Shown here: piece by piece, positions 24,016 through 24,517 of the stretch
Layout: every line of letters starts with the position of its first letter
Position numbering within the stretch: the first letter of the stretch is position 1
DNA from: a virus
Virus record (IMG/VR): IMGVR_UViG_3300027749_000457
Location: 1 to 25,037 of that record
Direction: 5' to 3' (one strand)
DNA: 25,037 bases
The notes under the pieces: model-generated
Database searches by the model: none
The model's input: only the letters and a program-made list of their open reading frames with translations
What the model was told of the DNA's origin: nothing
Translations under genes and position numbers: made by a program

Positions 24016-24021
24016 AAACAA

Positions 24022-24050
24022 ATTATATCAGAGTATATGCTGATTGTAAA
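24022..24050 (-). promoter_or_regulatory. Leaderless promoter of the minus-strand operon
   Basis: On the minus strand, TTTACA (24050-24045), a 17-bp spacer and TATAAT (24027-24022). The first -10 base is 12 bases from the A of the ATG at 24015; no SD. The DnaA boxes start 30 bp upstream. Confidence 0.75.
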
Positions 24051-24079
24051 GGTTTATCTTCCGTCCTCTTTTGCACAAG

Positions 24080-24220
24080 TTATCCACAGATATATACAAT
24101 AGTTATCCACAGATTATGCTAAAGTTATCCACAAGTTATACACATATACATTCATCTAATAGATTATATAGACATAGATAAAATATTTAGATCTGTATGA
24201 GTAATTGTGAGTTATCCACA
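24080..24220 (+). other. Cluster of five DnaA boxes (candidate replication origin)
   Basis: TTATCCACA occurs at 24080-24088, 24103-24111, 24125-24133 and 24212-24220, and TTATACACA at 24136-24144; all fit TTATNCACA and all face the same way. Between 24016 and 24517 (about 500 bases) there is no gene I can support: it holds these boxes, inverted repeats, a repeat family and promoters. Host DnaA binding is expected; whether it starts phage replication or titrates DnaA is inference. Confidence 0.75.
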
Positions 24221-24262
24221 ACCATCGTAATGTCACACAAACTGGTTATATGTCAAATATTC

Positions 24263-24288
24263 CCACAAATTTAGAGCTTGATCGTAAT
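24263..24288 (+). repeat. Copy A of a dispersed 27-bp element
   Basis: Divergent copy: CCCACAAATTTAGAGCTTGA followed by TCGTAAT. Related to copies at 24481 and 24729, same orientation. Confidence 0.5.
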
Positions 24289-24324
24289 ACCATACCAAAT
24301 ATCTCTTGACAAATGTGTGAAAAT

Positions 24325-24384
24325 ATGCATACAAAATGCATAGAAAACACAGATAAAACTATCATAAATGATAGAAAACTGTGT
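24325..24384 (+). repeat. Nested inverted repeats
   Basis: ATGCAT occurs at 24325-24330 and 24336-24341. CTATCAT-AA-ATGATAG (24359-24374) is a perfect 16-bp palindrome flanked by ACACAG (24347-24352) and CTGTGT (24379-24384), which also pair. This could form a cruciform or bind protein near the DnaA boxes. Confidence 0.7.
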
Positions 24385-24432
24385 AAAAATGCGGGGTTTT
24401 AATCTAAAATGCTCTGATTTCATATGCTTTAT

Positions 24433-24462
24433 ATTATCCCTATATATATGATAGTATGTCAA
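24433..24462 (-). promoter_or_regulatory. Minus-strand promoter pointing through the origin-like region
   Basis: On the minus strand TTGACA (24462-24457), an 18-bp spacer and GATAAT (24438-24433). Transcription would begin near 24426 and run toward the DnaA boxes. It could make an untranslated RNA, or a 50-codon ORF starting at 24423. Confidence 0.55.
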
Positions 24463-24480
24463 GGGGTTTTTTGTTAAATC

Positions 24481-24510
24481 CCCGCGAATTTTTATGCTCT
24501 TCGTAATGTC
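24481..24510 (+). repeat. Copy B of the dispersed element
   Basis: CCCGCGAATTTTTATGCTCT followed by TCGTAATGTC; 248 bp from copy C and very similar to it. It lies just upstream of the minus-strand promoter at 24457. Confidence 0.75.
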
Positions 24511-24517
24511 TAATAGA

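Follow-up and report, generated by a model that had tools for sequence, protein, structure and literature searches.

A conserved cluster of DnaA boxes in a gene-free interval of an actinophage genome fragment, a possible starting point for host-DnaA-dependent replication

A gene-free interval in a fragment of an uncultured actinophage genome carries five identically oriented DnaA boxes within 141 bp, and the clustering of these boxes together with their retention in cultured Streptomyces phages makes it very probable that this locus binds DnaA and has been retained by selection. Because the boxes are phased and partly paired, adjoin an AT-rich stretch and lie outside genes, in a group of phages with a helicase but no recognised DnaA of their own, the reading that fits best is that the array is a platform on which host DnaA initiates phage genome replication, carried out by the replisome that the phage itself encodes; we put this forward tentatively, as a plausible interpretation that could well be wrong.

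The window (the whole stretch of DNA analysed, 25,037 bases) is an entire record of an uncultured virus, classed as linear, and represents a 25-kb fragment of an actinophage genome. Its terminase is at most 62.5% identical to those of the Streptomyces phages of Cluster BE (Stanwilliamsviridae), such as Gilson, and its RNA genes comprise one tmRNA and six tRNAs. The host is presumably an actinobacterium, since the window encodes a WhiB-type regulator, a gene that is to our knowledge confined to actinobacteria and their phages, and the kind of records in which its relatives are found suggests a freshwater habitat. This one fragment combines genes for a tmRNA, a ferritin-like protein, a pyrimidine-dimer glycosylase, a PNKP-type phosphatase, WhiB and an HslV-like peptidase, a set listed at window positions 4600-4847, 9363-9815, 11897-12379, 12508-12918, 20546-20827 and 22977-23495.

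The five boxes are exact matches to TTATNCACA on the plus strand, starting at 24080, 24103, 24125, 24136 and 24212 and spanning 24080-24220, just as the original prediction had described them, and a sixth, degenerate box precedes them:

24069..24077, plus strand, degenerate box with one mismatch, 2 bp from box 1
24080..24088, plus strand, DnaA box 1, TTATCCACA, exact match
24103..24111, plus strand, DnaA box 2, TTATCCACA, exact match
24125..24133, plus strand, DnaA box 3, TTATCCACA, exact match, 2 bp from box 4
24136..24144, plus strand, DnaA box 4, TTATACACA, exact match
24212..24220, plus strand, DnaA box 5, TTATCCACA, exact match

The 2-bp gap between boxes 3 and 4 corresponds to the spacing preferred by Escherichia coli DnaA, given as 2-3 bp in PMC11317965. 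Matches with no more than one mismatch number 37 in the whole window against 47.6 expected; what is unusual is the clustering of boxes and not their total. A region that is 70% AT might be expected to yield a chance cluster or a low-complexity artefact, yet we consider this explanation extremely improbable. When the window was dinucleotide-shuffled 2,000 times, no 141-bp span contained more than two boxes (41 shuffles gave two), and 20,000 shuffles of the 502-bp stretch around the array gave three boxes at most, and only once, so that the observed five lie beyond chance, as would be expected of an origin. The exact triple-box pattern occurs in six of 42 records and the same pattern read backwards in none, and the boxes are conserved in relatives with a GC content of about 50%.

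The region was originally described as gene-poor, with palindromes and repeats, a description that the annotation of its surroundings supports. The 502 bp from 24016 to 24517 are free of genes and flanked by two minus-strand genes, with the start codon of a 54-aa gene (first base 24015) at the left edge and the end of a 65-aa ORF (24518-24715) at the right; a 63-aa ORF with a TTG start at 24271-24462 was taken as spurious. A pair of 67-nt repeats that are 70% alike lies at 24467 and 24715, and further features of the surroundings are as follows:

22977..23495, minus strand, HslV-like peptidase gene, the anchor for finding relatives
23851..24015, minus strand, 54-aa gene (from translation) behind the TTTACA-17-TATAAT promoter
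24022..24050, minus strand, sigma-70-type promoter TTTACA-17-TATAAT, 11 of 12 consensus bases, six bases before the start codon
24133..24192, no strand, AT-rich stretch (82% AT), candidate unwinding element
24199..24209, plus strand, GAGTAATTGTG, similar to what precedes the terminal repeat in 15 of 16 relatives, putative function
24259..24291, plus strand, 33-bp repeat ending in TCGTAAT plus flank, copy 1, score 15.6
24347..24384, no strand, imperfect hairpin ACACAG...CTGTGT (by eye), also in relatives L003, L004 and L005
24433..24462, minus strand, promoter-like sequence TTGACA-18-GATAAT, 11 of 12 consensus bases
24478..24510, plus strand, 33-bp repeat, copy 2, score 17.3
24726..24758, plus strand, 33-bp repeat, copy 3, score 12.0

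The AT-rich stretch ties for the AT-richest 60-mer of the segment from 22.5 to 25 kb. Two minus-strand promoters had also been proposed, and both exist as matches, the two best of 12 promoter-like sites, although the number of such sites does not exceed that in shuffles (12 versus 11.5). The transcript from the left-hand promoter is likely to be leaderless, because the promoter stands six bases before the start codon. The array lies 30 bp upstream of this strong promoter and could serve transcription control, with phage gene expression responding to host DnaA, a protein that also acts as a transcription regulator in E. coli (PMC11317965). The TATAAT and start codon recur, by eye, in five uncultured relatives (L003, L004, L005, L006 and L008). 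We nonetheless regard such a role as unlikely: the -35 sequence is not kept in L006 and L008, no comparable promoter was recognised by eye beside the boxes of the Streptomyces phages, and an overlapping ATCAG...CTGAT palindrome suggests the action of another regulator.

Uncultured relatives were found through the neighbouring HslV-like gene, giving 18 loci, in 17 of which up to 2.5 kb upstream of that gene was examined (omitting L020, whose match is partial and sits at the end of the locus); three of these (L007, L009 and L010) held less than 700 bp of upstream sequence. Five of the 14 loci with enough upstream sequence contain at least two exact boxes close together, with two in L003, two in L004, six in L005, four in L006 and four in L008. 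The other nine have no box cluster within the 2.5 kb or less examined upstream of the gene, and two of them belong to records with arrays elsewhere: G004 (the record of L011), with three box clusters near the other contig end, and G006 (the record of L014), where some 200 bp contain nine exact boxes, at a distance of roughly 12 kb. A scan of seven long environmental contigs identified clusters of at least three boxes in G003, G004 and G018, while G008, G009, G011 and G015, which may be incomplete, have no three clustered boxes; G015 has three close box pairs. Triple-box arrays are common in viruses, a scan of viral contigs returning at least 120 matches. Separately, a GGGGTCTGACAATTTT-like sequence recurs in intergenic stretches of G004 (89400-92300) and G006 (18600-19700) and is possibly a repeated promoter or operator.

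Sixteen cultured Streptomyces phages were examined: seven Loccivirinae, eight Boydwoodruffvirinae and Anedea, whose record gives no family and which has a long terminal repeat. Whole-genome searches place a box cluster at 116-123 kb, in the right arm, in all 16 genomes and find none in Trina and Dorin, two relatives that infect Rhodococcus. In 14 of the 16, two exact boxes fall within 30 bp, with no other such place in these genomes among the matches listed, and StarPlatinum and SparkleGoddess have one exact box and one with a single mismatch. The cluster lies within a gene-free region of 1.3-1.8 kb in Gilson, Wakanda and Samisti12, and two small minus-strand ORFs are annotated at the cluster region in BillNye. 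BLASTN searches with the Gilson and Birchlyn regions matched 49 and 34 phage records, respectively. Alignments show that the boxes are better conserved than the sequence around them, with 18 of 27 box columns invariant in the seven Loccivirinae versus 107 of 354 other ungapped columns, and 12 of 18 versus 41 of 228 in the nine phages with long terminal repeats. Start-to-start distances of 11-13 bp recur between boxes, close to the 2-3 bp gap favoured by E. coli DnaA; a Rayleigh test of this phasing was set aside as proof, since it is dominated by the most frequent spacing and the arrays are related to one another. Both close and remote relatives therefore keep the boxes, which are under selection at a constant position as an origin would be, and the concern raised with the original prediction, that they might not be conserved, does not apply. 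The same pattern bears on the notion that the array titrates host DnaA and so slows host replication. Several consensus boxes on a replicating genome would be expected to bind DnaA, but the Streptomyces relatives keep only two to four exact boxes, in a fixed place and with conserved geometry, and titration should need number rather than place; we think it very unlikely.

All 16 Streptomyces phages have, close to the boxes, a 33-bp repeat that ends in or near TCGTAA, and it is also dispersed over the right arm (including G003 33129-43759 and BillNye 87-119 kb), its strong copies sharing one genome direction whatever the gene direction. Both properties led us to reject these repeats as iterons. 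Several copies in BillNye end just before start codons. No initiator was found among the ten proteins right of the array in G003; neither the repeats confined to the origin nor the linked initiator gene of an iteron-type plasmid origin were recognised. The earlier suggestion of plasmid-like maintenance is not supported, as the protein searches made revealed no plasmid-type initiator and BE phages are described as presumed virulent in PMC10690885.

The boxes of the Loccivirinae stand beside a conserved non-coding block of roughly 134 bp (L287 1550-1683, equal to Gilson 121049-121182) that can form a long stem. The same block is present in Arthrobacter phages, Amigo and others, and, without boxes, in the Streptomyces tectiviruses Forthebois, RickRoss and WheeHeim, which belong to another viral realm; besides Gilson, positions of the block are L378 601-769, L379 601-734 and L380 601-698. 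Rfam gave no match for it and covariation is slight (one compensatory pair of 17), and the block is a candidate for a shared RNA or DNA element. An RNA role for this block between the boxes was dropped for the main question in view of its box-free occurrence in tectiviruses, the single compensatory pair and the lack of an Rfam match. A motif search yielded 25 stretches, five with a box within 300 bp, and three of those five are known relatives: L369 (record of L005), L374 (record of L003) and L376 (record of L004).

The position of the boxes relative to the genome ends raises a different possibility. Nine of the Streptomyces phages have long terminal repeats of about 10.4-12.6 kb, and in these the distance between the first box and the repeat start is 93-95 bp in all but Wofford, where it is 81 bp (counted in StarPlatinum from its one-mismatch box). 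A GTAAT motif stands one base before the repeat start in 15 of the 16 phages, the exception being BillNye. Because GAGTAATTGTG occurs just beyond the array of the window, as it does in G003, we predict that the terminal repeat of the window virus starts at 24207, with a cut at 24206^24207. These relationships suggest a possible function in which DnaA near the inner repeat border would take part in forming or duplicating the repeat, or in halting a stepwise entry of DNA as proposed for the injection stop signal of T5. We know of no case of stepwise DNA entry for the phages considered here. The ends of eight BE1 phages, including Samisti12, have been determined from read pile-ups (PMC5764925). 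DnaA boxes, repeats and palindromes are listed among the features of the T5 injection stop signal in PMC13250531, and the left repeat of T5 has three exact boxes, one of them inside the annotated signal. Against this, T5 has no tight box array, the terminal repeat of the window is itself a prediction, and the seven phages with short repeats of 0.7-2.3 kb have their boxes 5.4-6.6 kb from the repeat border, which led us to reject adjacency to the terminal repeat as a general rule. We regard an end function as rather unlikely. As a separate observation, the right genome ends of the 16 Streptomyces phages (W01-W04, W06-W16 and W18) all terminate in TAT and have GCACTA 40 bases before that end, followed in the inner copy of the repeat by a CATACA-like sequence and AAAAATT..ACATTT; this is a likely terminase cut signal.

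If the array is instead a replication origin, host DnaA would bind the phased, partly paired boxes, the bound DnaA would open the adjoining AT-rich stretch, and the opened strands would pass to a DnaB-type helicase, a primase and a DnaE polymerase encoded by the phage; each of these steps, from DnaA binding and strand opening to helicase loading, is inferred, as is any part in replication. In the window the boxes are followed by an AT-rich 60-mer; in eight of the nine long-repeat phages, one of the three AT-richest 60-mers has its start at +8 to +66 relative to the first exact box, with a mixed picture in the Loccivirinae. DnaB is encoded in 14 of 19 viral records, and the BillNye annotation lists a helicase, primase, SSB and DnaE polymerase, with the DnaB_C domain confirmed. 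The DnaA family, represented by its C-terminal domain, was found in none of 32 records (a control was detected in 10 of 14 genomes), and no known initiator or helicase loader was recognised among the proteins tested, most of which come from genes without an assigned function. The absence of DnaA, which bears on the concern in the original prediction that the phage might have an initiator of its own, agrees with the proposed reliance on the host, although an unrecognised initiator could still be encoded.

Other observations are less favourable. The skew minimum that was originally expected to mark the origin gave no help, as GC skew keeps its sign across the array in all seven Loccivirinae, with no strand-composition switch at the site. 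This is a weak test, since phage skew follows transcription; skew was rejected as an origin guide, for it follows the gene strand and does not switch where gene direction is constant (gene direction was checked by annotation in BillNye, Gilson and Wakanda). MiniFlayer and MulchRoom, satellites that multiply alongside BE helper phages and in which no primase is recognised (PMC10690885), might as a natural experiment be expected to carry the array if the helper replisome used it as an origin; they contain one and zero exact boxes, respectively, and neither has the array or the repeat. The few exact boxes of the Streptomyces phages are also a small number for a stand-alone origin. The limited spread of the arrays weighs against an origin as well: the exact triple pattern occurs in only six of 42 records, four of the seven long environmental contigs, which may be incomplete, have no three clustered boxes, and Trina and Dorin have no cluster. 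The claim of a host-DnaA-dependent origin therefore stands as plausible, resting on conserved boxes and relatives without a DnaA, and we hold it just below an even balance because the skew keeps its sign, the satellites lack the array and the T5 injection stop region has DnaA boxes of its own. A more speculative combination, which we consider decidedly improbable, is that host DnaA marks a joint origin and end in phages of the Stanwilliamsviridae type, where a DnaA-loaded phage replisome about 60-95 bp from the terminase cut would copy the 11-kb repeat so that each packaged genome receives two copies. Were this true, virulent phages with their own replisome would depend on the initiator of the host cell cycle.

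A literature search of titles and abstract openings identified no paper on DnaA boxes in BE or Stanwilliamsviridae phages. Thanks to cultured Streptomyces phages with a conserved host-DnaA site at a defined position, the place and manner in which replication starts can be tested directly in large virulent siphophages that have long terminal repeats and a replisome of their own. The word DnaA does not appear in the main text of PMC5764925 and PMC10690885, nor in the available part of PMC7157519.

Comparison with known systems places the array among several partial likenesses. Bacterial oriC, P1 oriR and pSC101 are origins of DnaA-dependent replicons, and the array resembles them in its cluster of consensus boxes, its pair of boxes 2 bp apart and its AT-rich neighbour; it differs in that no linked initiator gene or confined iterons were found and in that the relatives encode their own replisome. 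DnaA boxes with an AT-rich stretch have likewise been proposed as an origin by Ori-Finder in Pseudomonas phage PseuGes_254, which is an unrelated phage and a single genome with a prediction only (PMC11512268). The injection stop signal region of T5 (Tequintavirus) is similarly gene-free, contains repeats, palindromes and DnaA boxes, and is situated close to the inner end of its terminal repeat of roughly 10 kb; of the Streptomyces phages, nine have such a region beside the inner border of a long repeat and the other seven do not. T5 differs in having one exact box in the stop region and two further boxes 73 bp apart at 6121 and 6194, whereas the boxes described here form a tight array that lies outside the repeat in the long-repeat relatives. 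Finally, the Lactococcus phages 949 and WRP3, large phages unrelated to those considered here, each have a gene-free interval with seven exact boxes, close to where the gene direction switches (L351 2141-2515 and L352 2075-2438). The similar boxes in T5 and in phages of the Lactococcus 949 type suggest that several unrelated phage lineages recruit host DnaA.
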